A DNA stretch of 23,820 nt from a virus. Of the stretch, positions 46-16,812 are shown piece by piece. Within the stretch, counting starts at the first letter, position 1. Each line of letters starts with the position of its first letter. Position numbers and translations under genes: made by a program. The DNA is taken from positions 1 through 23,820 of the IMG/VR virus record IMGVR_UViG_3300030085_003845. The stretch is one strand, 5' to 3'. The notes under the pieces are model-generated. The model saw nothing but the letters and a program-made list of their open reading frames with translations, did no database searches and was not told the DNA's origin.

Positions 46-60
46 CCTTCTAAATAAGGC
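45..60. repeat. 5-bp hairpin with a late promoter motif in the loop
   Basis: GCCTT (45-49) and AAGGC (56-60) are perfect inverted repeats around the 6-base loop CTAAAT. The left arm begins at the last base of a possible upstream stop codon. No T-run follows, so it does not look like a classical intrinsic terminator. The promoter-like octamer at 49-56 lies across the loop. It may be a promoter/stem-loop unit, or a chance short palindrome. Confidence 0.5.
49..56 (+). promoter_or_regulatory. T4-type late promoter candidate for the 25-6-giant unit
   Basis: TCTAAATA matches six of eight bases of the T4 late promoter TATAAATA, which is read by the phage sigma factor gp55 with the gp45 clamp. It ends 24 bases before the GTG start of gp25. 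That is nearly the same distance as the other two late promoter candidates have from their genes, which supports function. A transcript starting just downstream would have a leader of only about 15-20 bases. Confidence 0.55.
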
Positions 61-80
61 AGAATAGTTGTATCAACCTA

Positions 81-482
81 GTGCCTGCTGAAAGAGTAAG
101 TAAAGGCTTTAAAGACATCAGTGCGAGTTTTCAGGTCAATCCATTGAATGATGATCTGATCGCACTGACAAATATTAATGCCATTGCCCGTTCTATTCGT
201 AATTTGGTGTTTACACAACGTGGTGACATTCCCTTCAAACCCACACTGGGTTCAAGGGTAAGTGAGTTGTTGTTTGAACCCTTGGATAACATCACATCTA
301 CTGCACTCAAGGAAGAGATTACAGACACCATTGTTAGTTTTGAACCTAGAGTCAAACTTGAAGATGTCACAGTCACTCCTGACTTTGATGACCTACAATA
401 TGACATCATCATCAGATATATTATCATCGGTATTGATGTTGATCCACAACAACTATCCTTTGCCTTAGTACCTACCAGGTAA
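81..482 (+). CDS. 25: gp25 baseplate wedge subunit (GPW/gp25 family)
   Basis: This 133-residue protein is a core subunit of the baseplate wedge. The family (phage P2 gpW, T4 gp25) sits next to the tail tube and sheath and helps start sheath assembly; T4 gp25 is 132 residues. What is seen: the cyanophage-type N-terminus PAERVSKGFKDIS, then FQVNPLNDDLIAL (residues 17-29), the core AIARSIRNLVFTQRGDIPF (34-52) and LGSRVSELLFEP (56-67), and EPRVKLEDV (88-96). The start is GTG at 81. The frame is closed by TAA at 51-53, there is no ATG near, and the family normally begins at this point. No strong Shine-Dalgarno sequence is visible. The stop is one base from the gp6 start, so the two genes are translationally coupled. 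It is probably made late from the promoter at 49-56. Confidence 0.95.
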   Translation: MPAERVSKGFKDISASFQVNPLNDDLIALTNINAIARSIRNLVFTQRGDIPFKPTLGSRVSELLFEPLDNITSTALKEEITDTIVSFEPRVKLEDVTVTPDFDDLQYDIIIRYIIIGIDVDPQQLSFALVPTR

Positions 483-483
483 G

Positions 484-2586
484 ATGCCCTTAGTTAACTT
501 TAGTAATCTAGATTTCGATCAGATCAAAGCGTCTATCCAAGACTACCTTCGTGCTAATTCCAATTTCACGGACTATGACTTTGAAGGATCGAACTTATCT
601 ACGATCATTAACACCTTAGCATACAACACTTACATCACTTCGTATAACGCCAATATGGTGACGAACGAAGTGTTCATTGATAGTGCAACGTTGAGAGAGA
701 ACGTTGTATCACTGGCACGTAATGTTGGATATCTTCCTAGGTCTAGAAAGGCACCTGTATGTAATATTTCTTTCTCTGTAGATGTTAGTGGTACCACAGC
801 CACGACAGTCACACTGAAAGCTGGTATTGTTGCAATTTCGAGTAAACAGGATAATTTAAGAACAGCTAATTTAGTATTCTCCATCGCTAATGATGTCACA
901 GTCGGTGTAGATAGTGATGGTTACGCAAACTTCCTTGATATTGACATCTATCAAGGCACTCTGATTACACAGACATTTAACGTATCCTCTCGTAATAAGA
1001 ATCAAAGATTTATTCTTCCTAACCCAGGGATTGATACATCCCTTATGAGGGTAACTGTCAAAGAAAGTTCAACCTCCACAGTACAGAGAACTTTCCAACA
1101 ATTTGATAGTTTGTTTGAAGTAAACAATAACTCTCCCATTTACTTCGTTCAAGAGATTGATAGTGAGAGATATGAAATCATGTTCGGAGACGGTGTCTTC
1201 GGTGTTGCAGTACAGGAACCTAACTTTATTGAAGTAAATTATATAATCACTGATGGTGAGGATGGTAATAGAGTAAGTGGTGTAAGATTTGCAGGATCAC
1301 TCAGAGACAACAATGGTAACACTATATCTGGTGGTGTCTCACTGATTACAGTGAATGACCCCTCTTATGGTGGTAGTCCAATTGAAAGTGTAGAATCAAT
1401 TAAGAAGTTTGCAACTCAAATTTACGCTTCACAGAACAGAGCTGTAACCGCAGCAGATTATGAAGCGATTGTTCCTCAGATTTATCCTGAGACTGAATCC
1501 ATCTCGGCTTTTGGTGGAGAAGAATTGACACCACCTCGATATGGAAAAGTCTTCGTAAGTATCAAACCTACGAACGGTGTATTTCTATCAACAGGAATTA
1601 AAGATAATATCAAGAGTCAGATTACAAAGTATTCTGTCGCAGGAATTGAAGTTGAGATTATTGATCTCAAGTATTTGTATATTGAGACATATTCAAATGT
1701 TTATTACAACTCAAACCAAGCTCCTAGTCCAAGTTATGTTTCTGGATTGATATCACAAAATATCAATTCCTACGCTAATTCTACTGAGTTAAATAAGTTT
1801 GGAGCAAGGTTCAAATACAGTAAATTCCAGTGTGTAATTGACCAAAGTCATGAGTCCATCACTTCTAATATCACAACAGTGATGATGAGAAGAGATTTGG
1901 AAGCGAACATGAATGAATTCACTGAATATGAAATTTGTTTTGGTAATCGTTTCGCGATTCAAAATCACGGACACGGTACTCACAACGGACAGATTGGATA
2001 CAATATTCGTTCGTCGGGATTTAAAGTAAGTGGTATCTCTGAAACAGTTTATCTTGGGGACACCCCCAACTTTGATTTGAAAACAGGATCAGTCTTCCTG
2101 TTCAAACTCAACTCTCCTACTGAACCAGTTATTCTGAGAAGATCGATTGGTACCGTTGATTACATCAAAGGTGAGATCAAATTGAATCCAATTAAGATTA
2201 TCTCTACAGAAGTATTCCGTGGAACTAATATTGTTGAGGTTTCAGCACAACCTTATTCAAATGATGTCATTGGACTACAAGATTTGTATCTTCAATTAGA
2301 CCCTGGTAATACCATTGTAAATATGTTAACAGATCGAATTGAATCTGGTAGTGACGTATCGGGAACAAATTACATTGTTTCTCCTAGTATACTCACCAGT
2401 TTGGTTAGAAGAACTCCTGTTATCTCAGGAGGCACGTCGTCAGTTTCAAGTGAGACTGGATCTAATCTCATCTCTGGTAGAGTGACGACTAATTTACCAA
2501 GTGTGAATCCACAAGTGACGACACCTACACCATCACCAACTCCTTCACCTTCATCATCTTCGTCCACCAGTTCATATAACTACTAA
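484..2586 (+). CDS. 6: gp6 baseplate wedge subunit (baseplate J-like)
   Basis: This 700-residue protein is the main structural ring component of the wedge (T4 gp6, 660 residues; P2 gpJ relative). T4 gp6 dimers form the continuous ring that holds the wedges together. The N-terminus (NFSNLDFDQIKASIQDYLR, then residues reading YDFEGSNLSTIINTLAYNT) and the J-family stretch SQNRAVTAADYEAIV followed by GGEELTPPRYGKVFVSIKP (about 315-363) identify it. A His-rich patch, HGHGTH, lies at 495-500. The last ~22 residues are a Pro/Thr/Ser tail. ATG 484 follows the gp25 stop by one base, with AGGT just upstream as a weak ribosome binding site. The giant wedge protein starts 9 bases after its stop. There is no internal promoter, so it is co-transcribed with both neighbours. 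Confidence 0.94.
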   Translation: MPLVNFSNLDFDQIKASIQDYLRANSNFTDYDFEGSNLSTIINTLAYNTYITSYNANMVTNEVFIDSATLRENVVSLARNVGYLPRSRKAPVCNISFSVDVSGTTATTVTLKAGIVAISSKQDNLRTANLVFSIANDVTVGVDSDGYANFLDIDIYQGTLITQTFNVSSRNKNQRFILPNPGIDTSLMRVTVKESSTSTVQRTFQQFDSLFEVNNNSPIYFVQEIDSERYEIMFGDGVFGVAVQEPNFIEVNYIITDGEDGNRVSGVRFAGSLRDNNGNTISGGVSLITVNDPSYGGSPIESVESIKKFATQIYASQNRAVTAADYEAIVPQIYPETESISAFGGEELTPPRYGKVFVSIKPTNGVFLSTGIKDNIKSQITKYSVAGIEVEIIDLKYLYIETYSNVYYNSNQAPSPSYVSGLISQNINSYANSTELNKFGARFKYSKFQCVIDQSHESITSNITTVMMRRDLEANMNEFTEYEICFGNRFAIQNHGHGTHNGQIGYNIRSSGFKVSGISETVYLGDTPNFDLKTGSVFLFKLNSPTEPVILRRSIGTVDYIKGEIKLNPIKIISTEVFRGTNIVEVSAQPYSNDVIGLQDLYLQLDPGNTIVNMLTDRIESGSDVSGTNYIVSPSILTSLVRRTPVISGGTSSVSSETGSNLISGRVTTNLPSVNPQVTTPTPSPTPSPSSSSSTSSYNY
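2518..2583 (+). other. low-complexity Thr/Pro/Ser C-terminal tail of gp6
   Basis: Codons 679-700 of gp6 encode TTPTPSPTPSPSSSSSTSS followed by YNY. The DNA is a C-rich/purine-poor run of ACC, CCT and TCA-type triplets (for example CCATCACCAACTCCTTCACC). It is probably a flexible tail beyond the folded wedge domain. Triplet slippage could change its length between related phages. Confidence 0.7.
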
Positions 2587-2595
2587 TATCAGAAA

Positions 2596-5500
2596 ATGGC
2601 AGTCGATAGAGTCAAGTTCCAGGATATTGTTGAGAGTCAGTTTCCTAGATATGTTCTGGAGGACTTTCCTCTTCTTCCAGAGTTCATCAAACAATATTAT
2701 AAGTCTCAGGAAAGCCAAGGTGCCACCTTTGATCTGATTCAGAATATTGATCAATATGTAAAAGTTGATCAGCTGTTTGACCTCAAGTCCTCTACCACCT
2801 TGAACGGTGATCTGGATTATACTGCCACAACCATCCCCACATCATCTCTTACAGACTTTACTGATGGGTTTCCCGAGACCAATGGTCTGATCAAGATTGA
2901 TAATGAGATCATTCACTATGAGTCGATTAGTAATAATTCTTTTGTAAATTGCACCAGAGGGTTTAGTGGTATCACGACTTATGTCTCTGGACATAATCCA
3001 GACTCACTGACCTTTGAGGACACTGAGACCGATACTCATAAGGATGGTGCAACCATTCTTAATCTTAACATCATCTTCCTCCAGGAGTTCTTCAAAAAAC
3101 TGAAGAACTTGATCACACCAGGATTCAATGATAGAGAATTGTATTCTGGTATTGATCAAAGAAACTTCATCTATAACGTAGATAGTTTTTACAAATCAAA
3201 GGGCACAGATCAATCTTTCAAAATCCTATTCAGAGCTCTGTTTGGTGAAGAAGTAGAAATCATCAAACCAAGTGATTTTCTGTTCAGACCTTCTGATGCA
3301 GACTACAAAGTCACACAGGAATACGTTGTAGAGAGTATCAATGGTGATCCCCTTCAACTTAAGAACCTCACTTTGTTCCAAGACTCTACAGGAGCTAGAG
3401 GTACGGTATCTGATGTAAATCCTATCACCTATGGTGACGGTCAATATTATCAGCTTTCTATTGATTATGGGTTTGCACGTGATATTGGTGTAAAAGGTTC
3501 AATCTTTGGTGAGTTCAAACCAAACCCCAAAACCAAAATCCTTAACACGATTGGTTTAGGTGCAACTATTATTGATGTTGATTCAACAATCGGTTTCCCA
3601 GAGACTGGTAATCTGATCATTAAAGACTCAGTTGGAGACCTTGTTTCAATTGCATACACTGGAAAGAGTGTCAACCAATTCTTCAACGTTAGTGGCATAA
3701 CAGAACAATTTGATAAAAAGACAGATCTTCGTTTTGATGATGAGTCTTATGCCTATGTTGGATTCGATACTAGTAATCCAATCCAAGTTCGTATCACATC
3801 AACACTTAAAGAATTCAAACTAAAAAGTGGTTCTTATTCTTATAGAGAGAATGACACTATCAATATTCAATCACTTGGTATTGAAAGAGGTGATGAGAGA
3901 TCCGATAATTGGTATTCCAATGTTAAGACTCAGTGGAATATTGAAAGTATTGAACTGGTTGACGAACTCGAACAGTCATACAACATCACTCTTTTTGATA
4001 ATCACTTCCTCAGACCTGGTTACGAAATCTTCCTGGTAAGTAAAGCGGGTCTTCAACTTCCTGGTGTGGTCATTCGTTCATCTTCGTCTACTTCATTCCT
4101 GACAAAACTTGCTGCCAATGTTGGTAGTATTCCTTATACCAAAGTTGAAAATCAACTTCTCAAAGGTGACTCTGGTAAGTACCCTAAGTTGAATGAGTTT
4201 GTTGCAAACGTACAGAATGTTTATCAAAAGTACAATGGTGAAGTTGCGGTTGCATCCAACTCACTTCCAAACTATTCCAACATCTTCACCGAACCTTACG
4301 ATAAGAATATCACATTTAGTGGAAGTTCCGATGGTGATAATCAGACTCTAACTGTATCCACAAACAAAGATCATGGATTCTTGACTGGTGATGCTGTCAT
4401 CTACAAACCTGGTGTCATTGAATCGACAACTATTTCTCCTGATGGTATTACAATTGTCAATACGACAGAAAGTAAGTTTCAGAATGTAGATGAAAACGTT
4501 TATTACATTAAGAGAGAGAACTCAACAAGTTTCAAATTAGCAAGATCTAGAGCTGATATTTTCTCTAATAAGTTCGTTGATCTTATTGGTGATGTATCTG
4601 ATAATCAATTCATCTATTTTGATTTCTTCAACAAGAAACTTATTGGACAAAATATTGTCAGAGAAGTATTGTCACCTGATAATAAGTCTGGTAATTATGA
4701 GACTGATCCTGGTTATACAGGTATGCTCATCAATGGTGTTGAGATTCTTAATTATAAGTCTAGTGACTTTTTGACTTATGGAGATATCAGATCTCTTGAG
4801 ATTACTGGAAGAGGTGAAGGATATGATGTCATCAATCCTCCTGTACTCGATATTGTTGATAATTATGGTAGTGGTGCCGAGGGTGTTGTATCTGTTGATG
4901 GATCTCTTAGTGGTATCAATATCATTGACCGTGGATTTGGATTCTTAGAACCTCCCACGATTACAATTACTGGTGGTCAACCAGATGTTGAGGCTAAGGC
5001 TGAAGTGAACATGACGAGTATCGTTCACTCACTCACATTCAACTCTGAGTTTACTGCAAAGAGAGTTAACATCGGTAATGATACGATTGGATTCTCGACC
5101 TTCCACAAATTGAATGTTGGTGACAAAGTTCAGTATGACGCCAAAGACGGTACTCCTATCGTTGGTCTCTCTACAAATGCATATTACTTTGTATCGACTG
5201 TTGACACATCCACGATCAAACTTCACAAGACTGAGGCGAATGCAGTAGCTGGAATCAACACTGTTGATATTCAGAACTACGGTACTGGTATTCATGCAAT
5301 TACCGCTGTTGGTGGTAGATCCATTGTTTCTAATGTCATCATTACAAACCCTGGTAGTGGATACAAGAACAGACATAGAAACATTCCTGCAGCAGGTATC
5401 AACACCGCACAAAATCGTTTCGAGATTCCTAATCATGGGTACTCATCTGGTGAAATCATCAAGTACTCCACCACATCTGGTGGTATCGAAGGACTCTCCA

Positions 5501-8500
5501 CATCTGAAGAGTATTATGTCGTCAAGGTAGATGATAATAATTTCTCTCTGTCTTTGGTGGGATCAGGAACCACTGATAAGAAATTCTTCTACGACAGAGA
5601 CATCCTGGTTGACATCAGAACTACTGGTAATGGTAGTTTCAACTATCTCCCAATTGAGTTCACTATCAACGGACCTATTGGTGTAACAACTGTTGCAGGT
5701 CAAGACTTCCAGTGTAAAGTTCAACCACTGTTTAGAGGTTCTATCAACTCTGTTGATCTGACCGAGAATGGAGTTGCATATGGTTCATCCGAAATTGTCA
5801 ATTTCAACAGACAGCCAAATATTGAATTCAAGAGTGGTAAGGATGCTCAACTCACTCCAATTGTCAGTAACTCCAGAATTGTTGATGTTATTGTAAATGA
5901 TGGTGGATCTGAATATAACTCTCCTCCAAACCTCATCATTCATGGTGAGGGTGGATTTGCTGCCCTGACACCAATTATTGATAATGGAGTCATCACTTCG
6001 GTATCTGTGCAGAATGGTGGAACAGGTTATGTTTCCGGTTCAACAAAGATTGAAGTCAGAGCTGCAGGTGAGAATGGATCTGCAGATGCAGTAATTAGAA
6101 ACTGGAATGTCAACGTCTTTGAAAGAGACTTTGAAAACATTGGTATTGATGATGGTTTTGTAAGTGAAAGTATCGATGACACATCACTTGAGTACTCTCA
6201 CCTTTATTCTCCTAGACCACTCAGATCCAACACCTATGTCATCTCATCCTCAGGTGAGACACAATATGGTATTTCAGACCTGACACTGGCTGGTGGTGTT
6301 GAGAAGACAAGTTCCTATCACTCTCCAATCATCGGTTGGGCATATGATGGTAACCCCATCTATGGTCCCTATGGATTCACCGATCCTCAGGGTGGCAACA
6401 TTTCTCAGATGACTTCTGGATATGAACTGATTACTAATCCTACCAATAGACCTCCCACATCACTTTTCCCCCTTGGATACTTTGTAGAAGATTATATCTT
6501 TACCGATAGAGGTGACCTGGACGAACACAACGGCCGTTTCTGTGTCACTCCCGACTACCCAAATGGTAGATATTGTTACTTCTCTACACTAAATCCTTTC
6601 TCTGTAGATTCAACAGGTCCATTCAAGAATTATAAGAGACCTGTATATCCATATCTGATTGGTAACAGTTTCTATTCAAAACCTAATATCAACAACTTCA
6701 AGGTTGAAAGTAATCAGGTTGATTATAACTTTGAGAATGGTGAGTGGTTTAGAAACACACTGGCATATCATACCAATGATGATGACAGTGGTTATGAGTA
6801 TGTTTTCAATTCCGACAAGGAAAGACATCAATCATTGGATGTTGTAAATGCATCTAAGGGTCATGTAGAATCCATCGGAATCATGACTGGTGGTATCAAT
6901 TACAAAGTCAATGACCGTATCAACTTTGTAAATGAGGCTACTGGTGGTTTTGATGCTCAGGCTAGAGTCGAAAGAGTTACTGGATCAGATGTCAATTATG
7001 TGAATTATGATCAAACTCAAGTAGAAAATATTGAGTTTGGAACAATTCTTAGTCTCAATCAATTCATTGGATTCTCTACAGAACCTCATCCATTTGTTAA
7101 TGCAGAACTCGTTACTATCTCTGGTCTTTCCACAACCTTCAATGGTTATTCTGGTTTAATTGATTCTAGAATTGGTATCAGAACTGATAACTTCCTTTTG
7201 ACACTTGGTGTTGGTTCGACTGGTCAGACTGGTCTCACTACTTACTTCTATGTCTCTGGAAATCTAGATTATCCCTCAATTCGTGAGAATGATATTCTTG
7301 GTATTGGAACAGAAAATGTGAAAGTTCTGAATATTGATAAGAGAGCTAGAAGAATTAGAGTCAGAAGAGAATATGATGGAATCTCTTGTGGATTGGCTCA
7401 CACTAACAGAACTGTTCTGTTTGAAGATCCTCGTAAGTTCCGTGTCAATGTTGGAACTCTGAAGACTTCAGTTGCACTCGAAGTTAATAAAGAATATTAC
7501 TTCTATCCTCAAGAGGTTGTTGGTCTAGGAACAGTTGGTGTGGGTAGTACAAGTGTATTCTCCAACCCCGGTGTTGGTATTACACAGAAGTTCATCCCAA
7601 CCAAACAAATCTATCTGCCTAATCACAACCTAGATGTCAACGACAGACTGTATTACAACAAACAGGGTGGAACTGCAATCGGTGCATGGAATGGTATCTC
7701 TACCGTTTTCAAAACACTCGATGACTATGATTTCTTCTACGCTGGTCCAGTAAACAGAGACTTTATTGGTCTGTCAACGAATAAGATTGGTCTTGGTACC
7801 GAAGGTGAGTTTGTAGGTGTAGGAACCACCAGTGGTCTCTTGATGTTCACATCTGTTCCTGGTGATGACTACCATAGTTTCGTAACTGACAAGGATAATG
7901 TTCTGACTGGTGATGTCAAAGTCACAACAGTCAATGTTGCCACATCGAGCACACACGGTCTAGAGGTTGGTGATAGTGTCTATATGACAATCAAACCAAC
8001 CAATACAAGAACTATCAGTGTTCAATATGACAACTCCTCCAGGAGGATTGTATTTGATCCTAAGAGTATCACAACAACAAACATCATCAAGAACACACTC
8101 ACGATCACTGGTCATGAGTTTGTGGAGGGTGACAGGGTACTGTATAGAGAAGGTGGTTCAGTAATCGGTGGACTCACCCATGGGACGATTTACTACGTCT
8201 ATCCATATGACAGTAATTCAATTCAACTTGTAAGAGAAAAGTATGAACTGTCTCAAACTAGACCAAAAGTTGAGGATATCACTTCGACTGGAACTGGTAC
8301 ACTTCTGAAAGTTAATCCTTCTCTCTACGCTAAGAGAAATGAGAAACTTAAGTTCGACCTCTCAGATCCCTCACTTTCTTTTGTTGTAAGTGGTGTTCGT
8401 AGTTCTGCCTTTGAACTGAGATTCTACACTGATAGTGATTATACAAACATCTTTAACACAACTGAAACCAGAACTACATTTGAAGTCACTCGTTCTGGTA

Positions 8501-11500
8501 ACACTGGCATCGATGCTGATGCAAATGTCACTCTGAACATCTCCGACGAAGTTCCATCAAACCTGTGGTATAAGTTCTGTCCCATTAACAATGACATCAT
8601 TACAGATGTCAAGAATGAGATTGTAATTGACACTGATGTAAACTCCAATAACTCCATCAATATTGAAAAGACCAAGTATGATGGTCTCCATAGTTTGACT
8701 GGTGTTGGTGATACAACATTCTCTTACAATATTAGTGCGACACCAGACGTACAACTCTACAATGTTGAGAATGCTTTTTCTAACTATGAGACAACTTCTG
8801 GCACTGCGTCTGGTCCTATTAGTCGTGTTCACATTCTAGATCAGGGTGCAAACTACGAAGTAATCCCTGGTATTTCGACAATCATCAGTGACAATGGTTC
8901 TGGAGCAATTCTTCAGGCTAATAGTGAAAACATCGGTAAGATTCAAAAAGTTAGATTCAACTCTCACAGAATTGGATTTGACTATCCTACTGATCAAACA
9001 TTGAGACCAATCGCTAACCCACCTGAGATTCTGGATCTTGAGTCCCTGACTTCATTTGAATCCATCGGTATTAGTTCTGGTGGTAGAAATTATCTCGTGG
9101 CTCCTGATCTGGTAGTCCTTGATGGATTCACAAGAAACAAAGTAGAAGACCTTGATATCTTCTATCATCTTGGTGACACCTCGGTTACTATCCTTAGGAA
9201 CACAACAGGTCTCTATAATGTATCACCAGAGATTATCCCAGTCAACAACTCCAACGGTGTTGGTATCGCTAATGTGATATACACACCTTCTACCAAGAGT
9301 GTCAGGTTGATGCTTGACTCCACATTCAGTGACGCAAGTGCATTCCCCTACAATGTCGGATCTAAAATCTTTGTTGAAAATCTGAATGTTGGTGTCGGTT
9401 CCACGGCCAGAGGATATAACTCTGAGGATTATAGTTATCAGTATTTCACTGTCACGGCATCCGATTCTAACCTTGGTGGTGGACCTGGTGCATATGTTGA
9501 TTACTCACTCAAGGAGTACCTCGATGATACAGATGTACCAGGACAGGTCAATCTGGCAATCTCTGCAGGTAGAGTTATTCCCGTAACTCACTTCCCAATC
9601 TTTGAGTCCAAACTCAAAAAGAATGACTTCTATGAGGATGAAGTTATTGTTTATCAAGGAAAGCATACAGGAAGAGTTGAGTCTTGGAATAATGTTACCG
9701 AGATCCTAAAGGTTGATACTCCCAAAGAATATAAACTCAATGAAACAGTCAGAGGTTTGACATCTAACACTCAGGCTGTCATTCGTTCCAAACTTGATTT
9801 TGATGCTGAGATCACAACAGGTGTTGGTGCAACTGTCACCTATGGTTGGCAGAAGTCAACTGGTTTCCTGAATGATAATCTTCAAAGAGTTCCAAATAAT
9901 GAATATTATCAGTCCTTCTCTTATTCTATTAAATCTAGAGTTCCTTTTGATAATTGGGAAGATCCCGTAGGTTCTCTGAATCACATCTCTGGTTACAAAG
10001 AGTTCTCAGATCTTCAGGTTGTATCCCAGGAAGATATTCCACTGGGTGTTGCACAACCATTTGATTCTGATGTTGATACCACTACTGATATCGTAAGTAG
10101 TGCGGCTTTGTATTGTTTCTATGACTTTGATTTTGTTACCGAGAACAACAACCTGATCAACGGTCAAGTTACTTCGGATGAGATCTTCTTTGAAAATAGA
10201 ATCCTTTCTGATTACTTCCAATCTGTTGGTAACAGAGTTTTGGATATTGATGACTTCTCTGGTGAGTTCTTCAGTAATGAGAGACCTACAAAGTATAGTG
10301 ACGTTGAGGCATTCAACTTCAATGATATCTACAACAAAGTCTTTACCTTTGTCAAAGATAGAATTTTCACAGATGAGAGACAAACATCTATCGTATCTGT
10401 TCTTCAAACTGACCAGATTGGTTACATGCAAGAGTATGCAACCATGGAGACATATCCAGAACTTGGATACTTTGATTACATCGCAACTGCTGATGGTTGG
10501 AATCTTCAGTTCCATCCTGTCAAGTTTGCAAATAACATCTATGATGTTTCAACCCTTTCCATCAGTATCCAGGATAATGTTGCTGGTGTAGGTAGTACGG
10601 CTCTTGGAACTGTGGCTCTCCTTGAGAGTGGTAGAGAGACAACTCCTGATAACACACTTGAGACCATCGCTACTATTCCTTCCGAGTTCAGAGCTATTAA
10701 GTCTGTTGTTCTTCAGGAAGATGAACTTGGTGATTACGCATCTACTGAAATCAATTTGATTCATGATGGTTCAGATGTCCATATCCTGGAATACGCGGAT
10801 ATGGCCACCAAGTCTGGTTCATATTCATCTACAGCAGGATTTGGTACATTCGGTGCTAGATTGTCTGGTAACAACATCCTTCTGGATTTCACACCTAATG
10901 TTGGAACTGCGGTTACCACTAACACCTCAATCATCGCATTGTCTGATACCGGAACTGGTATCTCCTCTATCACATTTAGAGAGTCTAGACTGAACTCTAA
11001 CTTCAAAAATATCTTGGCCTCTGGGTCACCATCCGCTAACACGATTCTTCAGTTTGAAGAACCTTACGCAAGTGGTTACTATGTTGTATCTGTTAAAGAC
11101 ACAACAAATAATCAGTATGAAATGTTTGAAGTTGCTGTCATCGCATCTGAGTCAAATGAACACTTTGTGGAGTTTGCAAACATCGATACTGGTGCAAGTC
11201 TTGGTCAAATCGGAATCACTTCCACGGCTAATTACACCAACCTCACTTACACAGCCAATCCTAACGCGGCTGTTGAGGTAAGAACATTTGGTATTGAACA
11301 GAAGATTTATGATGATAATCTTGATGCAACACAAATGCTTCTGAACAACCATGAGTACATCTCTGGAACTGGTTTGTATAGAGGTACTAAACTTGATCTG
11401 AGAACTGCATTCGATCTTGAACATGATGGTCTCCCAATCTTCAAGAGACAGTTTGAAGGATCTGATTCATCTTCATTCGACTTTGATAATAATATTCTCT

Positions 11501-14500
11501 TCATCAAGGAACACTTCTTTGTAACTGGTGAGAATGTCACATATTCTTATGGTGGTGATTTCACAGAAGAGGCCATCGGTATTAAGACAACCAATGTCAC
11601 TGGTATTGGTACAACTGACAAACTTCCTAGAGATTTGTTTATTGTCAAGGTTGGTGACGGTAGTGTCAGATTTGCAGAATCTGCAGCAAAGGCAAACAAA
11701 CTGAATCCTGAAGTTCTTGAGTTCACTCATGTTGGTATTGGTACTTCTCACCATATCACGGCCAAGAAACAGAACGCTAAGGCTCTGATCGCCGTTGATA
11801 ATATGATTCAGGCACCATTGGCTGAGACAAGAGTAAGTACAACATTGGCTCAGAACATTGTCTTTGATTCACAATTTGATGTGGCAGGAATCACATCCAT
11901 TGCGGCAGCTGATCTCCTTCGTATTGATGAAGAGGTGATGAGAGTCGTCAGTGTTGGTGTTGGTGGAGCTAATAATGTTCTTGTCCAAAGACAACAACTT
12001 GGAACAAAACTCGCACCTCACACCAATGGAGCAACAGTCACTAAGATGACTGGTTCATACAACATTGTTGGAAGTACGATCAATTTTGTGGCTCCTCCAT
12101 ATGGAGCTGTACCTCTTTCAACTACTACTTCTGCACCTTCTGAAAGAGACTACACTGGACTGACAACTCATTCTACATTCCAGGGTAGAACATTTATGAG
12201 AACCGCTCCCGTCAATAGTACGAGAGAAACATATCACGCTAACCACGTCTTTGATAATCTTTCCAATGAGTTCACTGGTATCGCCAGTGAGTTTAGGTTG
12301 ACTCAAGGTGGTCAGAATATTTCTGGTTTCTCTACTGATAACGCAATTGTCCTTATTAACAATATCCTACAAGAACCATTAGGAGCTCAGGCTGATCAAG
12401 GGACATATGATCTCACAGAAGTCGCTGGTGGAATATCTTCTGTAAGGTTCGATGAAACATCTGCAGCCTTTGGTTATGATCCAAACAGATCAAATCTTCC
12501 TATCGGTGGATTCATTGTATCCATCGGTTCTACTGAGGGTGGTGGATATCAACCTCTGATCGGAGCTGGTGGTACAGTCACTGTATCGGCAGGTGGTTCG
12601 ATCACGGCCGTTAGTATTGGTAACTCTGGTTCTGGTTACAGATCTGGACTTGGTAGTATCTTCGTTGGTGTTCAGACATCCAGTATTGGAACTCCAAATA
12701 TCACCACAATTGGTACGGCTACAATCTCAAATGGTAATGTTACAGGTGTAACAATCACCAACGCTGGTACAGGATTTACAGGAACAAACCTACCTGAACT
12801 GGTAATTGATGAACCACATTCTTACACAAACATCCCCCTTGTTTATAGTAGTTCTTCGGTCCAAGGTGTTGGACAATCAGCTACTATCGACATTCAAGTC
12901 GGAGCTGGTGGTTCGGTCATTGACTATCAACTGAAACAGGAAGGTTTTGCGTACGGTAACGGTGAGATTCTGACTGTTCCTGTTGGTGGTGCAACTGGTA
13001 TTCCTACTAGTGGAACATTGAATGAGTTCCAGATTACTATTGATGAAATTTACAACGATTCTTTCAATGGATTCTCGATTGGTCAACTTCAGGTTCTTGA
13101 TAACTTTGATTCTGACTTTGATGGTAAGAAGAGAACATTTAGATTGTCTGTAAATGATCTCGCACTGTCCATTCAGTCGGCACCTGGTTCACCTGTAGAA
13201 GTTGATAAGACTCTCCTTATCTTCATTAATGATGTTCTTCAACAACCAGAAGTAGCTTACAACTTCACGGGTGGTGGTACTGTAGAGTTTGTTGAACCTC
13301 CTCAACGTGGTGACAGTTCTAAGGTCCTGTTCTACAAGGGTAGTGGAGATATTGATGTTGTCTTCACTGATGTTATTGAAACCGTTAAGGTTGGTGATAG
13401 TTTGAATATCAACAACAATCCTGAGGTTGGTCAAGGCATTGGACTTGATGAATTTGAAAGAGTTGTTGTTGGCATCAACACCATTGACTCTGTTTCTACT
13501 AACACATACAATGGTCCAGGTATCACAGACGACAGTACTCTGTCTAGACCTGTTGTCTGGTGTAAACAACAAGTTGACCTTATTGTCAATGGTCAAGAAG
13601 TTGGTAAAGATAGAGTTGATTACGAACCACAAATTTATCCTACATCTTATCTGATTCAACCTGTAAGTGCCGCCTCCACCATCGCATATGTCGATAGTGT
13701 TAGACCTCTGTTTGATTACAATTCTGAATCAAATGACAGAGACTTCCAGAACAAGATTAAGATTGTTTCTCAAAATACATTAGTTGGAGCCTCTGCTACG
13801 GCTGTTGTATCTGGACTTGGAACAGTAAGTATTAGTCTTAATAACACAGGTATTGGATACACTGTTGCTCCTACTCTGAGTATCGCACATCCATCTAATG
13901 GAACGAGAGCCACAGGAACACTTACCATGACAAATGGAAGTGTCAGTGGTGTAACTGTCACAAACCCTGGTTCTGGATATACCTCTACTAATCCTCCTGT
14001 AGTTCTCATCTCTGAACCTACTCTTGTTAGAGAAGAAATCAACGTTGATAGTTATAGTGGTGATTTTGGTGTTCTGGTCGGATTTGCATTGTCCACAATT
14101 AGTGGTCAAAACCAACTCATTCTGGACTTCTATATCCCCACTAATTCTCCAATGAGAGATAGTAGTGAAGTTGGAACTGGTATCACAGTTAGTGGTATTG
14201 GAACTGGTGATTACTTCACAGTATTCAACTCAGGTATTGATCCTACCGTGACCATTGATTCTGAGAGAATTGACGGAACTCAGATTGGAATTACTTCAAA
14301 CTTCATTGATTGTGTTTATCAAGTCCATAGTGCATATACACTTGAGAAGAATGTTATCGGAGTTGGCAACACCACAGTAAGAAGAGTATTTACCAATGTT
14401 GGTAATATCTCAACTGAAGCATTCTCTTCTTCTTTAATTACCTTCGATTCCTCCACATTTACCTTTGATTCTCGAACCTTCACCGTATACGCAGGTGGAA

Positions 14501-14670
14501 TTAGTTCCGCTTCAAATATGGGAAGATTCAGTTGGGGTAAGATTGAGTTTGAGGGAAGAACATCACCACAAGAGTTTGATTTCTATGGTGACAATGACAT
14601 TATTGGAATTTCTACTTCTGGACTCGTTTCTAGATTTGTTCCCCTTAAGTTCAGGGACTATACATCATAA
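2596..14670 (+). CDS. giant gp7/gpI-like baseplate wedge protein with YHYH and beta-repeat extension
   Basis: One uninterrupted ORF encodes 4024 residues, by far the largest complete gene here. It occupies the gp7 (P2 gpI) position directly after gp6. Residues 1-60 (FPRYVLEDFPLLPEFIKQYY) and 196-222 (FYKSKGTDQSFKILFRALFG, then EEVEI) closely resemble the C-terminal region of T4 gp7 as I recall it (FYSTKGIEASYKFLFKVLYN, then EEVEI). Between them, at 97-129, is a small inserted module containing CTRGFSG. The rest is beta-rich: six 'HG..xGD.V.Y' modules (593-1850), about fourteen 'GxGY' motifs (740-3795), a YHYH domain (about 1215-1356), three modules containing I/L-Q-x-P (3072-3551), and many GVGST-type turns. 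The C-terminus has GRFSWGKI (3976-3983), a pattern I associate with cyanophage virion proteins. T4 gp7 has only 1032 residues. Start ATG 2596 is 9 bases after gp6. The wedge role is well supported for the N-terminus; the function of the extension is unknown. Confidence 0.85.
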   Translation: MAVDRVKFQDIVESQFPRYVLEDFPLLPEFIKQYYKSQESQGATFDLIQNIDQYVKVDQLFDLKSSTTLNGDLDYTATTIPTSSLTDFTDGFPETNGLIKIDNEIIHYESISNNSFVNCTRGFSGITTYVSGHNPDSLTFEDTETDTHKDGATILNLNIIFLQEFFKKLKNLITPGFNDRELYSGIDQRNFIYNVDSFYKSKGTDQSFKILFRALFGEEVEIIKPSDFLFRPSDADYKVTQEYVVESINGDPLQLKNLTLFQDSTGARGTVSDVNPITYGDGQYYQLSIDYGFARDIGVKGSIFGEFKPNPKTKILNTIGLGATIIDVDSTIGFPETGNLIIKDSVGDLVSIAYTGKSVNQFFNVSGITEQFDKKTDLRFDDESYAYVGFDTSNPIQVRITSTLKEFKLKSGSYSYRENDTINIQSLGIERGDERSDNWYSNVKTQWNIESIELVDELEQSYNITLFDNHFLRPGYEIFLVSKAGLQLPGVVIRSSSSTSFLTKLAANVGSIPYTKVENQLLKGDSGKYPKLNEFVANVQNVYQKYNGEVAVASNSLPNYSNIFTEPYDKNITFSGSSDGDNQTLTVSTNKDHGFLTGDAVIYKPGVIESTTISPDGITIVNTTESKFQNVDENVYYIKRENSTSFKLARSRADIFSNKFVDLIGDVSDNQFIYFDFFNKKLIGQNIVREVLSPDNKSGNYETDPGYTGMLINGVEILNYKSSDFLTYGDIRSLEITGRGEGYDVINPPVLDIVDNYGSGAEGVVSVDGSLSGINIIDRGFGFLEPPTITITGGQPDVEAKAEVNMTSIVHSLTFNSEFTAKRVNIGNDTIGFSTFHKLNVGDKVQYDAKDGTPIVGLSTNAYYFVSTVDTSTIKLHKTEANAVAGINTVDIQNYGTGIHAITAVGGRSIVSNVIITNPGSGYKNRHRNIPAAGINTAQNRFEIPNHGYSSGEIIKYSTTSGGIEGLSTSEEYYVVKVDDNNFSLSLVGSGTTDKKFFYDRDILVDIRTTGNGSFNYLPIEFTINGPIGVTTVAGQDFQCKVQPLFRGSINSVDLTENGVAYGSSEIVNFNRQPNIEFKSGKDAQLTPIVSNSRIVDVIVNDGGSEYNSPPNLIIHGEGGFAALTPIIDNGVITSVSVQNGGTGYVSGSTKIEVRAAGENGSADAVIRNWNVNVFERDFENIGIDDGFVSESIDDTSLEYSHLYSPRPLRSNTYVISSSGETQYGISDLTLAGGVEKTSSYHSPIIGWAYDGNPIYGPYGFTDPQGGNISQMTSGYELITNPTNRPPTSLFPLGYFVEDYIFTDRGDLDEHNGRFCVTPDYPNGRYCYFSTLNPFSVDSTGPFKNYKRPVYPYLIGNSFYSKPNINNFKVESNQVDYNFENGEWFRNTLAYHTNDDDSGYEYVFNSDKERHQSLDVVNASKGHVESIGIMTGGINYKVNDRINFVNEATGGFDAQARVERVTGSDVNYVNYDQTQVENIEFGTILSLNQFIGFSTEPHPFVNAELVTISGLSTTFNGYSGLIDSRIGIRTDNFLLTLGVGSTGQTGLTTYFYVSGNLDYPSIRENDILGIGTENVKVLNIDKRARRIRVRREYDGISCGLAHTNRTVLFEDPRKFRVNVGTLKTSVALEVNKEYYFYPQEVVGLGTVGVGSTSVFSNPGVGITQKFIPTKQIYLPNHNLDVNDRLYYNKQGGTAIGAWNGISTVFKTLDDYDFFYAGPVNRDFIGLSTNKIGLGTEGEFVGVGTTSGLLMFTSVPGDDYHSFVTDKDNVLTGDVKVTTVNVATSSTHGLEVGDSVYMTIKPTNTRTISVQYDNSSRRIVFDPKSITTTNIIKNTLTITGHEFVEGDRVLYREGGSVIGGLTHGTIYYVYPYDSNSIQLVREKYELSQTRPKVEDITSTGTGTLLKVNPSLYAKRNEKLKFDLSDPSLSFVVSGVRSSAFELRFYTDSDYTNIFNTTETRTTFEVTRSGNTGIDADANVTLNISDEVPSNLWYKFCPINNDIITDVKNEIVIDTDVNSNNSINIEKTKYDGLHSLTGVGDTTFSYNISATPDVQLYNVENAFSNYETTSGTASGPISRVHILDQGANYEVIPGISTIISDNGSGAILQANSENIGKIQKVRFNSHRIGFDYPTDQTLRPIANPPEILDLESLTSFESIGISSGGRNYLVAPDLVVLDGFTRNKVEDLDIFYHLGDTSVTILRNTTGLYNVSPEIIPVNNSNGVGIANVIYTPSTKSVRLMLDSTFSDASAFPYNVGSKIFVENLNVGVGSTARGYNSEDYSYQYFTVTASDSNLGGGPGAYVDYSLKEYLDDTDVPGQVNLAISAGRVIPVTHFPIFESKLKKNDFYEDEVIVYQGKHTGRVESWNNVTEILKVDTPKEYKLNETVRGLTSNTQAVIRSKLDFDAEITTGVGATVTYGWQKSTGFLNDNLQRVPNNEYYQSFSYSIKSRVPFDNWEDPVGSLNHISGYKEFSDLQVVSQEDIPLGVAQPFDSDVDTTTDIVSSAALYCFYDFDFVTENNNLINGQVTSDEIFFENRILSDYFQSVGNRVLDIDDFSGEFFSNERPTKYSDVEAFNFNDIYNKVFTFVKDRIFTDERQTSIVSVLQTDQIGYMQEYATMETYPELGYFDYIATADGWNLQFHPVKFANNIYDVSTLSISIQDNVAGVGSTALGTVALLESGRETTPDNTLETIATIPSEFRAIKSVVLQEDELGDYASTEINLIHDGSDVHILEYADMATKSGSYSSTAGFGTFGARLSGNNILLDFTPNVGTAVTTNTSIIALSDTGTGISSITFRESRLNSNFKNILASGSPSANTILQFEEPYASGYYVVSVKDTTNNQYEMFEVAVIASESNEHFVEFANIDTGASLGQIGITSTANYTNLTYTANPNAAVEVRTFGIEQKIYDDNLDATQMLLNNHEYISGTGLYRGTKLDLRTAFDLEHDGLPIFKRQFEGSDSSSFDFDNNILFIKEHFFVTGENVTYSYGGDFTEEAIGIKTTNVTGIGTTDKLPRDLFIVKVGDGSVRFAESAAKANKLNPEVLEFTHVGIGTSHHITAKKQNAKALIAVDNMIQAPLAETRVSTTLAQNIVFDSQFDVAGITSIAAADLLRIDEEVMRVVSVGVGGANNVLVQRQQLGTKLAPHTNGATVTKMTGSYNIVGSTINFVAPPYGAVPLSTTTSAPSERDYTGLTTHSTFQGRTFMRTAPVNSTRETYHANHVFDNLSNEFTGIASEFRLTQGGQNISGFSTDNAIVLINNILQEPLGAQADQGTYDLTEVAGGISSVRFDETSAAFGYDPNRSNLPIGGFIVSIGSTEGGGYQPLIGAGGTVTVSAGGSITAVSIGNSGSGYRSGLGSIFVGVQTSSIGTPNITTIGTATISNGNVTGVTITNAGTGFTGTNLPELVIDEPHSYTNIPLVYSSSSVQGVGQSATIDIQVGAGGSVIDYQLKQEGFAYGNGEILTVPVGGATGIPTSGTLNEFQITIDEIYNDSFNGFSIGQLQVLDNFDSDFDGKKRTFRLSVNDLALSIQSAPGSPVEVDKTLLIFINDVLQQPEVAYNFTGGGTVEFVEPPQRGDSSKVLFYKGSGDIDVVFTDVIETVKVGDSLNINNNPEVGQGIGLDEFERVVVGINTIDSVSTNTYNGPGITDDSTLSRPVVWCKQQVDLIVNGQEVGKDRVDYEPQIYPTSYLIQPVSAASTIAYVDSVRPLFDYNSESNDRDFQNKIKIVSQNTLVGASATAVVSGLGTVSISLNNTGIGYTVAPTLSIAHPSNGTRATGTLTMTNGSVSGVTVTNPGSGYTSTNPPVVLISEPTLVREEINVDSYSGDFGVLVGFALSTISGQNQLILDFYIPTNSPMRDSSEVGTGITVSGIGTGDYFTVFNSGIDPTVTIDSERIDGTQIGITSNFIDCVYQVHSAYTLEKNVIGVGNTTVRRVFTNVGNISTEAFSSSLITFDSSTFTFDSRTFTVYAGGISSASNMGRFSWGKIEFEGRTSPQEFDFYGDNDIIGISTSGLVSRFVPLKFRDYTS
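3181..3261 (+). other. gp7/gpI core motif in the giant protein
   Basis: Residues 196-222 contain DSFYKSKGTDQSF and LFRALFGEEVEI. The pattern 'Y-[KR]-S-K/R-G-T-x-x-S-x-x-x-L-[FL]-R-x-L-F-G' is shared by phage tail protein I and T4 gp7, where it lies in the part of gp7 that contacts gp6 in the wedge. The similarity was judged by eye against remembered sequences. A profile search against the tail protein I / gp7 families would decide it. Confidence 0.7.
4372..8145 (+). repeat. six 'HG..xGD.V.Y' protein modules in the giant
   Basis: Diverged repeats start at residues 593 (DHGFLTGDAVIY, counting from the His), 837 (FHKLNVGDKVQY), 947 (NHGYSSGEIIKY), 1677 (NHNLDVNDRLYY), 1787 (THGLEVGDSVYM) and 1840 (GHEFVEGDRVLY). 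Several are followed by a 'GGI.GLST...YYV' segment and then a strand with alternating hydrophobics. Copies 2-3 and 4-5 are both 110 residues apart. The DNA is diverged, so these are old duplications kept as a protein fold rather than recent tandem repeats. Confidence 0.75.
6238..6663 (+). other. YHYH domain inside the giant protein
   Basis: Residues about 1215-1356 carry the hallmarks of the YHYH family: GWAYDGNPIYGPYGF (1248-1262), then YFVEDYIF, DLDEHNGRFCVTPDYPNGRYCYF, and YPYLIG at the end. This domain of unknown function is found in bacterial secreted proteins and in large virion proteins of marine T4-like phages. Assignment is from motif memory. The boundaries are approximate. Confidence 0.8.
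11761..13260 (+). repeat. three modules with an 'LI..N.[IL]Q.P' core in the giant
   Basis: ALIAVDNMIQAPL (Q at residue 3072), AIVLINNILQEPLG (3259) and TLLIFINDVLQQPEVAY (3549) share a core, followed by an 'FV/FT.PP.G' strand in the first and third (VAPPYGAVP, VEPPQRGDS). Similar segments occur in many phage fibre and virion proteins, often ahead of a hydrophobic strand pair. They look like a diverged triplicate beta domain. A self-dot-plot of the protein would define the unit length. Confidence 0.6.
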
Positions 14671-14697: not shown

Positions 14698-16812
14698 ATG
14701 GCCAAGTTAGGGATAAGTACTGGCTCCTCAGCTAATGATGGAACAGGTGACAATCTAATTGATGGTGCCGTAAAGATAAACTCGAACTTTAACGAGATCT
14801 ACACTCTTATCGGTGATGGATCAACACTCGCTGCCCCAGTGAAGAGTGTGACAGCTGGAGCTGGTATCAACTTAAGTGGATCTACTGGTGATGTAACTAT
14901 TACTAACACTGGTATTGCAAATACCAATAATCTAAGAACTAATTTTCTTGAAGTCAGTGGTGTTTCTACATTATCAGGTAATGTTACCTTTGGAAGTAAT
15001 GTTACCTTTGATGGTAACATTTTTATGGGTGATAGTCAAGAAATTAAACTTGGTGATGGTGATGATCTTAAGATTTATCACTCCCCCGCTGGAGACGTTG
15101 GTGCATTTGTCCAGAGTATGAATCAGGACCTCCATTTGGTGGGTCCTACCAATGGTGGTGTACGCATTATTACTTATAATAAAGATTCTGTTGTTGCGAA
15201 TTACAATAGTTCAGTTGACCTATATTATAACGGTTCTAAGAAATTAGAAACCACTGATCATGGTGCAAAGGTAACAGGTGTATGTTCTGCAACATCATTT
15301 ATTGGTGATGGTTCTAATCTTACTGGTATTGCCGCTGGAAGTGGAGTTATAGTTCAGGATGAAGGTGTTGCATTAGCTACAACTGCAACTACATTGAATT
15401 TTGTTGGTAATGGTGTAGTTGCATCAGGAACTGGAGCAAGTAAAACAATTACCATCTCTGGTGGCGGTGGTGCGGGTAATACGGCAAATGTAAGCACCAA
15501 TTCACTTGTTGTTGTTGGTGTTGCAAGTATTGGAGCAGGAACATCTACTAATGTTGTAGAGGCTCCTGGACTGACTCTTACTCACAATAATTCAACGGTT
15601 ACCACTACACCTGGAATCTCTGGTCAAATCAAACAAATTGGTAGTCAACCATACTACTATGATGGAACAGATTGGAGAGCACTGTATCTCGTAGCTGGTG
15701 TATCTACTGCCAATACAGCGGATACTGATTGGGATAATACGATGATTCGTATGAATTTCGATCAGGCAAATATAGGTGCTCTCACTAACCTAAAAGATGG
15801 AGTATCTCCTACTAACACAAGTACTACTGATCTGGTTTCATCACCAGTTAAGTATGGCACGAAGTCTGTAAGATTTCCAGCAAACACTGCTGGAATACAA
15901 TTCGATCAAAACAACAGTGGAAGTGTTCGTTATCCCTTTGAAGGTGCTTGGACGATTGAAGGATGGTTCCTCTTTGATGCTTCTCAACTAACAACCAATA
16001 CAACAACTGTTTCTGCCACAAAGTTATTTGCAAACTTTAATTCTAATACAGGAACTGGTACTAACTGGGATGTAGGTGTATATTGGTCTGGTAGCACTGG
16101 GTCTTATAAATTCTATTGGCATAATAGAGCTTCTTCTAATACTGGATCAGGTGAGGCTGGAAATAGTGGTACTGGATTTGTTCTACGAACTCTCAATAGT
16201 TCTGTATTCGCTGATAACAATTGGCATCACATTGCACTTGTAAGAGAACCTGGTAATGGATCAATTCACTTCTACTTTGATGGAGTTGAAGGTGGTGAAA
16301 CCAATAACGACGAGTTGATTGATAATGATATTAATGATGCCACCAATAAGGTCTTTGCTCTTGGTTATCATAGTCATGTAAACGTTGGTACTGGTTGGTT
16401 TGATGGAAACATTGATGATTTCAGAGTTTCTAATATCGCAAGATATACTACTGATTTTACTCCACCAAGTTCAGCACTTCCAATCACTGGTTCCACAACT
16501 ACAGTCATTCAACCACCTGATAGTAAGATTGGCGAACTTGCTCTTGGTAATTCACCAGCGTGGACTGGAACTCCTGGAGTCACTCCTACACGAGTTGCAG
16601 CAGGTCATTACAGAGTCACATTCGCTACCGCATATTCTAACGCCAGTGATTATGTCATTCAAACTAGTATGAATGATTACACACCTGTAACCACGGCTGT
16701 TGGTATTGGTGTTAGTAGATTTACCACTCACGCTGACCTCTATGTGAATAAGGTCAGTAATGGTGCTACTATTGATACAGGTAGCATCGCAATTGATCTC
16801 TATAAGAAGTGA
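14698..16812 (+). CDS. tail fibre/pin-like protein with gp10-like N-terminus and LamG domain
   Basis: This 704-residue virion protein is likely attached to the baseplate and exposed for host contact. Residues 13-42 (ANDGTGDNLIDGAVKINSNF, then NEIYTLIGDG) match the start of T4 gp10, which anchors to the wedge. Next come fibre-type repeats: NVTFGSNVTFDGN, GDGDDLKIYHSPAGD, SVDLYYNGSKKLET and ATSFIGDGSNLTGI (about 90-215). A Gly-rich hinge (GGGGAGNT) is followed by a concanavalin/LamG-3-like domain (about 343-592), with WTIEGWFLFD, NNWHHIALVRE, HFYFDGV and IDDFRVSNIARYT. The last ~100 residues form a beta cap. ATG 14698 follows a late promoter at a 21-base gap; 'tagaga' upstream is only a weak ribosome site. 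T4 has no gene between 7 and 8, so this is an extra, cassette-like gene. Whether it is a true gp10 equivalent or a fibre with a borrowed anchor is open. Confidence 0.82.
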   Translation: MAKLGISTGSSANDGTGDNLIDGAVKINSNFNEIYTLIGDGSTLAAPVKSVTAGAGINLSGSTGDVTITNTGIANTNNLRTNFLEVSGVSTLSGNVTFGSNVTFDGNIFMGDSQEIKLGDGDDLKIYHSPAGDVGAFVQSMNQDLHLVGPTNGGVRIITYNKDSVVANYNSSVDLYYNGSKKLETTDHGAKVTGVCSATSFIGDGSNLTGIAAGSGVIVQDEGVALATTATTLNFVGNGVVASGTGASKTITISGGGGAGNTANVSTNSLVVVGVASIGAGTSTNVVEAPGLTLTHNNSTVTTTPGISGQIKQIGSQPYYYDGTDWRALYLVAGVSTANTADTDWDNTMIRMNFDQANIGALTNLKDGVSPTNTSTTDLVSSPVKYGTKSVRFPANTAGIQFDQNNSGSVRYPFEGAWTIEGWFLFDASQLTTNTTTVSATKLFANFNSNTGTGTNWDVGVYWSGSTGSYKFYWHNRASSNTGSGEAGNSGTGFVLRTLNSSVFADNNWHHIALVREPGNGSIHFYFDGVEGGETNNDELIDNDINDATNKVFALGYHSHVNVGTGWFDGNIDDFRVSNIARYTTDFTPPSSALPITGSTTTVIQPPDSKIGELALGNSPAWTGTPGVTPTRVAAGHYRVTFATAYSNASDYVIQTSMNDYTPVTTAVGIGVSRFTTHADLYVNKVSNGATIDTGSIAIDLYKK
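14998..15021. repeat. 9-bp perfect inverted repeat and 14-bp direct repeat within the fibre gene
   Basis: AATGTTACC (14998-15006) and GGTAACATT (15013-15021) pair perfectly around the 6-base loop TTTGAT. The left arm is part of TAATGTTACCTTTG (14997-15010), a direct repeat of 14979-14992 with an 18-base period. That repeat encodes the six-residue unit NVTFGS/NVTFDG. The hairpin lies about 300 bases into the gene. Confidence 0.6.
15724..16473 (+). other. LamG/concanavalin-like domain of the fibre protein
   Basis: Residues about 343-592 show the order expected of the LamG-3 family: a first strand with MIRMNFDQ, GTKSVRFP (387-394), WTIEGWFLFD, a long central strand set, NNWHHIALVREPGNGSIHFY with FDGV, and the closing FDGNIDDFRVSNIARYT (to 588). 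These folds bind sugars or proteins. In a phage fibre a receptor-binding role is likely, but it is not shown by sequence. Confidence 0.8.

Follow-up and report, generated by a model that had tools for sequence, protein, structure and literature searches.

A T4 gp7 orthologue of 4,024 residues with a baseplate wedge core probably split by a long insertion

The window, meaning here the whole stretch of DNA that was analysed, is a 23,820-base virus fragment (IMG/VR record IMGVR_UViG_3300030085_003845), and the genome from which it comes is known only as a fragment. Its largest complete open reading frame (ORF), at positions 2596..14670, starts with ATG and runs through 4,024 codons to one terminal stop in an unbroken frame, encoding a protein with a calculated mass of 439 kDa. 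The ORF lies directly after the genes for the baseplate wedge proteins gp25 and gp6, so that the first-pass annotation was right to place it in the position of gp7. It is very likely that this ORF encodes an orthologue of phage T4 gp7 in which the core is split by an insertion. The wedge genes and the four parts of the giant protein are as follows.

81..482, + strand: gp25 (gpW-like) baseplate wedge protein, 133 residues (Pfam GPW_gp25, E 2.6e-13; phrog_261, E 3.5e-46)
484..2586, + strand: gp6 (gpJ-like) baseplate wedge protein, 700 residues (phrog_219, E 2.2e-192; Pfam Gp6-like_1st, E 6.5e-15)
2596..14670, + strand: giant gp7, 4,024 residues (ORF; phrog_2885, 3519.5 bits)
2596..3609, + strand: first core half, residues 1-338, corresponding to T4 gp7 residues of about 643-827 (hidden Markov model, HMM, and profile-profile comparison; Pfam Baseplate_wedge, E 2.8e-4, below the curated cut-off)
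3610..9747, + strand: insertion between the core halves, residues 339-2384, 2,046 residues (edges from the core HMMs)
9748..10152, + strand: second core half, residues 2385-2519, part of which matches T4 gp7 847-905 (HMM and profile-profile comparison)
10153..14667, + strand: C-terminal tail, residues 2520-4024, about 1,500 residues (core HMM edge; module HMMs)

The assignment to gp7 is carried by matches to two separate blocks of the T4 protein. In a BLAST comparison of the window gp7 with 14 further gp7 chains, of which S-SSM7 supplied two, the proteins of phiN3 and Melnitz aligned both at the N-terminus and at window residues of about 2357-2478, while T4 gp7 in this 15-sequence search gave 34% identity over 76 residues (E 9e-5). 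The HMM of the first half matches T4 gp7 with an independent E-value (i-E) of 2e-10, and profile-profile comparison places this half on T4 residues 729-827 (E 1.9e-10), with a score of 85.4 against a maximum of 28.2 for shuffled and 17.2 for reversed profiles; a weak colinear piece matches T4 643-681 (E 0.014). In T4 this is the region of the helical domain and domain V (643-861). The second half matches T4 847-905 (E 7.9e-6) with a score of 45.3, against 21.6 for the best shuffle and 15.1 for the reversed profile. The T4-side profile comprised the gp7 proteins of T4, JK32 and PspYZU05, and the null comprised 20 column shuffles and the reversed profile; chance similarity to T4 gp7 is rejected on these controls. 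In addition, a profile of compact gp7 proteins matches the three T4-type gp7s across T4 residues 624-970 (E 5.5e-13), and a compact-homologue profile finds the solved gp7 structures of Klebsiella phage Lilla1 (E 1.2e-11) and T4 (1e-6). The window protein is thus orthologous to T4 gp7. The earlier proposal that its N-terminal 300 or so residues correspond to the C-terminal third of T4 gp7 is borne out by the HMM and profile matches, whereas the link it drew to P2 gpI finds no support in sequence.

The distance between the aligned blocks is about 20 residues in T4 gp7 and 2,046 between the block models in the window. Iterating the block HMMs across IMG contigs and named phages gave 309 ORFs with both blocks, of which 241 were counted as complete; these were picked for having both blocks, many are near-identical, and the set includes one protein of 623 residues that stops inside the second half and the S-RIM2 protein, whose locus is cut at 6,095 of 6,378 residues. 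The first block precedes the second in all 241, separated by 13-2,578 residues. This slot holds 13-685 residues in 215 compact ORFs (median 232) and 1,429-2,578 residues in 26 giant ORFs (median 2,052), the latter range including the window. A gp6-like ORF lies immediately 5' of gp7 in 207/207 IMG loci that extend 500 nt or more upstream, among 222 complete ones. The ORF sets came from seeded searches limited to 80 loci, and the apparent gap in total length between 1,447 and 3,007 residues is no census; ORF122 of S-CREM2, which is gp7 by position and has 1,937 residues according to table coordinates, lies between these two values.

Structural evidence comes from a compact IMG homologue of 662 residues (L215). 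It belongs to an alignment of 42 of 86 non-redundant compact candidates, drawn from 205, in which it shares 24-83% identity with each of the other 41 rows; a second alignment holds 49 of 50 listed relatives and the window. The model of the compact homologue has a mean predicted local distance difference test score (pLDDT) of 65.5 and a predicted template modelling score (pTM) of 0.38; local pLDDT is near 90 around residues 171-340 and about 60-73 in the second core block. Foldseek returned three hits below 0.001 for this model, all to gp7 (Klebsiella phage Lilla1 once and T4 twice), and VIA aligned its residues 31-396 with T4 gp7 643-893 in one span (Z 10.7, 231 residues). The root-mean-square deviation (rmsd) of this alignment, 16.7, reflects a superposition of local parts only, and the match may be read as a hinged one. 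P2 gpI-type chains are not among the rows shown for this model, which excludes nothing. Fold similarity to gp7 was found through this compact homologue only.

Several observations weigh against the split-core interpretation. The fold evidence is weakened by the moderate quality of the homologue's model and by the local nature of the superposition, and it derives from this homologue alone, not from the joined halves of the window protein. The second half escaped ordinary hmmsearch in T4 gp7, and as a single domain it was not significant when solved chains were searched with the compact profile. Pfam also separates the two groups, assigning Gp7_helical, Gp7_5th and Gp7_6th to T4 gp7 and Baseplate_wedge to the compact gp7s (42/42, E <= 1), and the first half of the window protein reaches Baseplate_wedge only under its cut-off. 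Gp7_helical and Gp7_5th were not reported for the window pieces searched, and the full-length window protein has no sequence match in the PDB at E <= 1.

Great length in gp7 is itself not new: it is a real form of T4 gp7 in marine phages (cyanophages). The window protein falls in phrog_2885 ('baseplate wedge subunit', 4,179 columns), the best stretch pairing residues 4-3366 with columns 8-3359. Its residues 1-320 have hits in 485 phage records (E <= 1e-5), which go by the names Synechococcus (372), Cyanophage (61), Prochlorococcus (24) and other phages, and many of the 60 matches listed are labelled gp7, baseplate wedge initiator or baseplate wedge subunit. Giant gp7 proteins have 4,024 residues in S-B05, 4,307 in P-TIM68, 5,195 in P-SSM2, 4,156 in S-SM2, 4,749 in S-T4, 4,067 in Bellamy, 3,515 in S-RSM4, 6,378 in S-RIM2, 4,225 in ACG-2014f, 4,446 in P-HM1 and 6,619 in S-SZBM1. 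An assembly artefact is ruled out by complete giants on 14 distinct IMG contigs and in named isolates.

The insertion and tail contain several kinds of recurring module. GY, HGL, RG and NVLQ are working names coined in this analysis for modules found by iterated HMMs; such HMMs can drift, and the eight GY hits in the window include two that overlap. All rows below rest on iterated HMMs except the last.

4729..4986, + strand: GY module 1, residues 712-797
5608-5823, 5848-6054, 6850-7005 and 8779-9033, + strand: further GY copies in the insertion
12517-12819 (two, overlapping) and 13780-14031, + strand: GY in the tail
4366..4572, + strand: HGL module 1, residues 591-659
5083-5265, 5413-5583, 7606-7800 and 8092-8271, + strand: further HGL copies in the insertion
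11491-11715, + strand: HGL in the tail
2830..2973, + strand: RG module in the first core half, residues 79-126
3565-3696, + strand: second RG copy, residues 324-367
12301-12414 and 13132-13314, + strand: NVLQ modules in the tail
6094..6594, + strand: YHYH-type domain, residues 1167-1333 (Pfam YHYH, E 2.2e-26)

With eight GY hits, six HGL, two RG, two NVLQ and one YHYH domain, recognised modules account for 1,231 of the 3,551 residues outside the core (35%), leaving two thirds without a module; the first-pass annotation therefore overstated the case in describing some 3,700 residues of repeat modules. One simple tandem repeat was rejected, as a self-BLAST shows only scattered, divergent copies. 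Of the 12 named giants, the window included, all have the YHYH domain and 10 have HGL hits listed, six of these with six copies apiece; S-RSM4 and S-RIM2 are the two without a listed HGL. In the gp7 of S-RIM2, overlapping GY hits (residues 295-587) lie within the first core half (residues 107-615), which shows that module insertion is not limited to one slot.

A model of window residues 330-1500 has a mean pLDDT of 70 and a pTM of 0.52, is nearly all beta and is confident at about 450-519, 570-679 and 730-1169. Small domains from ubiquitin E1 (Z 8.9) and V-ATPase (Z 8.3) head its VIA rows and may be taken as generic matches, and the fold comparison yielded no function for the beta modules; the second HGL copy sits in the segment (809-906) that superposes on the small ubiquitin E1 domain at that Z. 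The sole Foldseek hit below 0.001 was a portal-tail chain of the LME-1 phage (E 2.9e-4), and its template modelling scores (TM-scores) of 0.08 and 0.10 make it uninformative. T4 gp7 is not listed for this model, which omits nearly all of both core halves.

GY, named for its GxGY motif, lies between the core halves in six of the seven named compact gp7s (Bhz51 with two copies, BUCT-ZZ01 one, Melnitz two, Mosig three, HTVC008M three and phiN3 four), and none is listed for OC; in most of these proteins the first copy overlaps the end of the first-half model. HGL, RG, NVLQ and YHYH have no hit listed in the same seven. The GY module of the modelled compact homologue superposes on domain I of the T4 tail sheath (3fo8; Z 8.2, rmsd 2.6, 76 residues), and the corresponding Pfam family, Gp18_dom_I (PF22639), is matched by 14/42 compact gp7s at E <= 1 and by neither of the two window GY copies searched. 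Hits to the GY columns are scattered over genes of the phage genomes searched, for example gp14 of P-SSM2, and occur in gp8 of the window. As far as sequence goes, this distribution suggests that GY is a widely shared module.

It could be argued that the length is passive, i.e., that the slot tolerates module duplication and acquisition and pads the baseplate without other function. The giants range from 3,007 to 6,619 residues with differing module numbers, HGL is not listed for two of them, and GY occurs also in gp8, gp14 and other genes, all of which would fit such a slot. The ratio of non-synonymous to synonymous differences (pn/ps) argues the other way. Measured against two close homologues (L175 and L176, respectively), it is 0.11 and 0.13 in the first half, 0.16 and 0.16 in the insertion, 0.17 and 0.20 in the second half and 0.18 and 0.22 in the tail, so that the whole insertion and tail are nearly as constrained as the core; whole-gene values with six more distant homologues are 0.24-0.48 and affected by saturation. 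Windows of 250 codons give 0.06-0.24 and 0.08-0.45, and the one at 0.45, residues 3751-4000 near the end, again favors padding. All four parts of gp7 are under purifying selection, and the earlier claim that selection keeps the 12-kb frame intact holds, with this one window as the highest value. Taken together with the recurrence of HGL and of the YHYH domain across the named giants, these ratios make purely passive length unlikely.

The layout proposed in the first-pass annotation, in which everything past a gpI-like N-terminal domain is C-terminal extension and adds a layer to the wedge, is less probable still. The strongest similarity to T4 is indeed N-terminal, and the placement of a gp7 region at the very start stands for residues 1-338. 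It does not account for the rest of the core: residues 2385-2519 form a conserved block that aligns with T4 gp7 immediately past domain V, it is present in all 241 complete ORFs (chosen, as noted, for both blocks), and both blocks fall in the gp7 gene of 17/17 complete genomes. Since this second block lies 2,046 residues downstream, more than half of the added residues sit inside the core, as an internal insertion, and are not a C-terminal extension. The tail speaks partly for the older layout. In S-SSM7 (19992-39086), gp7 is present as two proteins of 3,007 and 3,001 residues with a gp9-like gene between them; the former holds both core halves, and the latter matches parts of the last 900 or so residues of the window gp7. 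The end of the tail can therefore be a chain of its own.

The YHYH domain raises the further idea of a tail-associated enzyme that would act on the cell envelope as a metal-dependent hydrolase; YHYH domains are predicted metal hydrolases in the available excerpt of one source (PMC7824862). The strength of the Pfam match and the presence of the domain in every named giant speak for it. In the window domain, the stretch that gives the family its name reads Y-x-Y-F in place of YHYH, the F being found in 83/86 rows. H1242, D1251, D1299 and D1309 are conserved in 86/86 rows, and H1242 is the only histidine of the domain conserved at 90% or above (89 aligned rows, redundant, with the window counted twice). 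An enzymatic role for the giant protein is accordingly considered improbable.

Searches of 17 complete phage genomes placed the second half, and the helical part of the first, in the gene after gp6 and nowhere else in 17/17; other hits in these genomes fall in columns 145-337 of 600, mostly GY columns. The absence of a second gp7 gene, on which the first-pass annotation depended, thus holds for these relatives; the window's own genome is a fragment. VrlC-like genes were found by sequence search in 16/16 relatives tested and not in T4. The reading that gp7 is absent, that VrlC substitutes for it and that the giant ORF is something else, which follows a statement on pelagi- and cyanomyophages in the accessible part of one article (PMC7029224) and could draw on the faint BLAST similarity to T4 gp7, is hardly tenable given a gp7 core in a single gene after gp6 in every complete genome and a coexisting VrlC-like gene in all 16 tested. 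At the level of sequence, these two results contradict that statement. Elsewhere, gp7 is named among divergent non-cyanophage core genes in the excerpt available (PMC3037559).

A homologue of the giant protein is present in virions. In S-SZBM1, a 'baseplate wedge initiator' of 6,619 residues (S-SZBM1_208) was detected by mass spectrometry with 71 peptides, 13.5% coverage and an exponentially modified protein abundance index (emPAI) of 0.41, beside a wedge subunit of 691 residues, gp6 by length and place, with an emPAI of 0.23, according to the sections available (PMC9146016). The length of S-SZBM1_208 equals that of the coding sequence directly 3' of gp6 in the genome record. A second virion protein of that phage carries the same label and has 615 residues (PMC9146016, same sections); in the core profile search, the ORF of this length shows nothing but a GY-column hit. 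For ORF122 of S-CREM2, 91 unique peptides are given in the part of the report at hand (PMC10665884).

On the split-core reading, gp7 is the partner of gp6 in the inner part of the baseplate wedge, and its ancestral core, two halves that together have about 500 residues, is present and colinear with T4 gp7. Between the halves, in the slot that carries GY modules in six of the seven named compact relatives, the protein has swollen to 2,046 residues, mostly beta modules, with about 1,500 more after the second half. Residues 1-338 and 2385-2519 would fold together against gp6, the inserted segment would form a hairpin arm with both ends at a single point of the wedge, and the tail would form a second appendage. 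Six copies, the T4 stoichiometry, would amount to about 2.6 MDa. The arms and tail may then make an outer baseplate layer that does the work of the missing gp10-gp11-gp12 rim, namely bracing the wedges, holding fibres and contacting the host.

The T4 gp11 family was found in 0/16 relatives, with T4 itself positive, and T4 gp10 has short N-terminal matches in 6/16 and another weak match in one. Genes 10, 11 and 12 are listed as missing, with structural proteins of unknown function expected as stand-ins, in the available part of an earlier article (PMC2984593). It is possible, and here put forward only tentatively, that the giant gp7 forms an outer layer in the role of this rim, and the broader proposal that gp7 of marine T4-like cyanophages grew from about 500 to 3,000-6,600 residues and replaced gp10, gp11 and gp12 as the host-facing layer is offered with the same reserve. 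Against the proposal, the host-facing arms and hairpin geometry are inferred, the mass spectrometry table gives no peptide positions (PMC9146016), and gp11 was not found in the five compact-gp7 phages searched either. As the compact-gp7 phages also lack a detected gp11, loss of the rim alone does not explain gigantism. For the question of how these phages manage without the rim of T4, the split core offers a concrete and testable layout.

Downstream of the giant gene, the window continues with three ORFs, giving the overall order gp25, gp6, giant gp7, gp9/10-type ORF, gp8 and VrlC-like ORF.

14698..16812, + strand: fibre-like protein with a gp9/10 N-terminal domain, 704 residues (Pfam T4_gp9_10_N, E 5.9e-8; phrog_677, E 4.5e-16)
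16851..18407, + strand: gp8, 518 residues, with one GY module at residues 205-278 (phrog_438, E 6.4e-159; GY HMM)
18414..23819, + strand: VrlC-like protein, open at the window end (matches in 16/16 named relatives, 0 in T4)

The fibre-like ORF between gp7 and gp8 has a weak laminin-G-like match (E 0.023), and S-SM2 and P-SSM2 are without a gene in this place. The counterpart of the last ORF is labelled VrlC in several relatives and otherwise in the rest.

The annotation of this family is uneven. The gp7 of the pelagiphage HTVC008M (3983-7033) is annotated as 'head closure Hc2', and phrog_3465, which carries the same label, matches it end to end; the GY module shared with gp14 (phrog_460) is the likely cause. 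Three further families, phrog_701 (6,136 columns), phrog_4406 (3,231) and phrog_19630 (1,266), are labelled 'head and packaging'. Both core halves of compact gp7s match phrog_701 and phrog_4406, and the first half matches phrog_19630, which suggests that these are giant gp7 families, whole or in part. The labels of phrog_3465, phrog_701 and phrog_4406 are those to mend. No description of a split gp7 core was found among the listed titles and openings of abstracts, chiefly of papers outside subscription.

Among known systems, the phrog_2885 giants of S-B05, P-TIM68, Bellamy and S-SM2 are closest. They are homologous to the window gp7 over nearly its full length at about 40-45% identity, follow gp25 and gp6, and differ by ordinary divergence, the identical length of the S-B05 protein being a coincidence of insertions and deletions; S-SM2 and Bellamy, unlike the window, have no gene separating gp7 from gp8. 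The compact gp7s of Bhz51 (Stenotrophomonas; 503 residues), BUCT-ZZ01 (607), OC (Ochrobactrum; 631), Mosig (Pelagibacter; 874), Melnitz (Methylophilales; 896), phiN3 (Sinorhizobium; 1,006) and HTVC008M (Pelagibacter; 1,016) likewise have both core halves and gp6 upstream, whereas the slot is short (13-685 residues in the 215 ORFs) and HGL, RG, NVLQ and YHYH are not listed. The GY module resembles domain I of the T4 sheath protein gp18 but here lies inside baseplate proteins and not in the sheath. P2 gpI occupies the same W-J-I place in gene order, and profiles searched against the single P2 sequence gave no similarity of gpI to either core half or to T4 gp7 (E 0.15-0.3). T4 gp7 itself (1,032 residues; PDB 5IV5, 5HX2) also follows gp6, and its core of about residues 643-905 is common to both proteins. 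Its first 640 or so residues have no counterpart detected in the window gp7 by BLAST or profile-profile comparison, and for its domain VI (920-1012) Pfam Gp7_6th was, at the sequence level, not reported in the whole window protein (E <= 0.1) or the pieces searched. Where T4 gp7 has about 20 residues between the two blocks, the window protein has 2,046.

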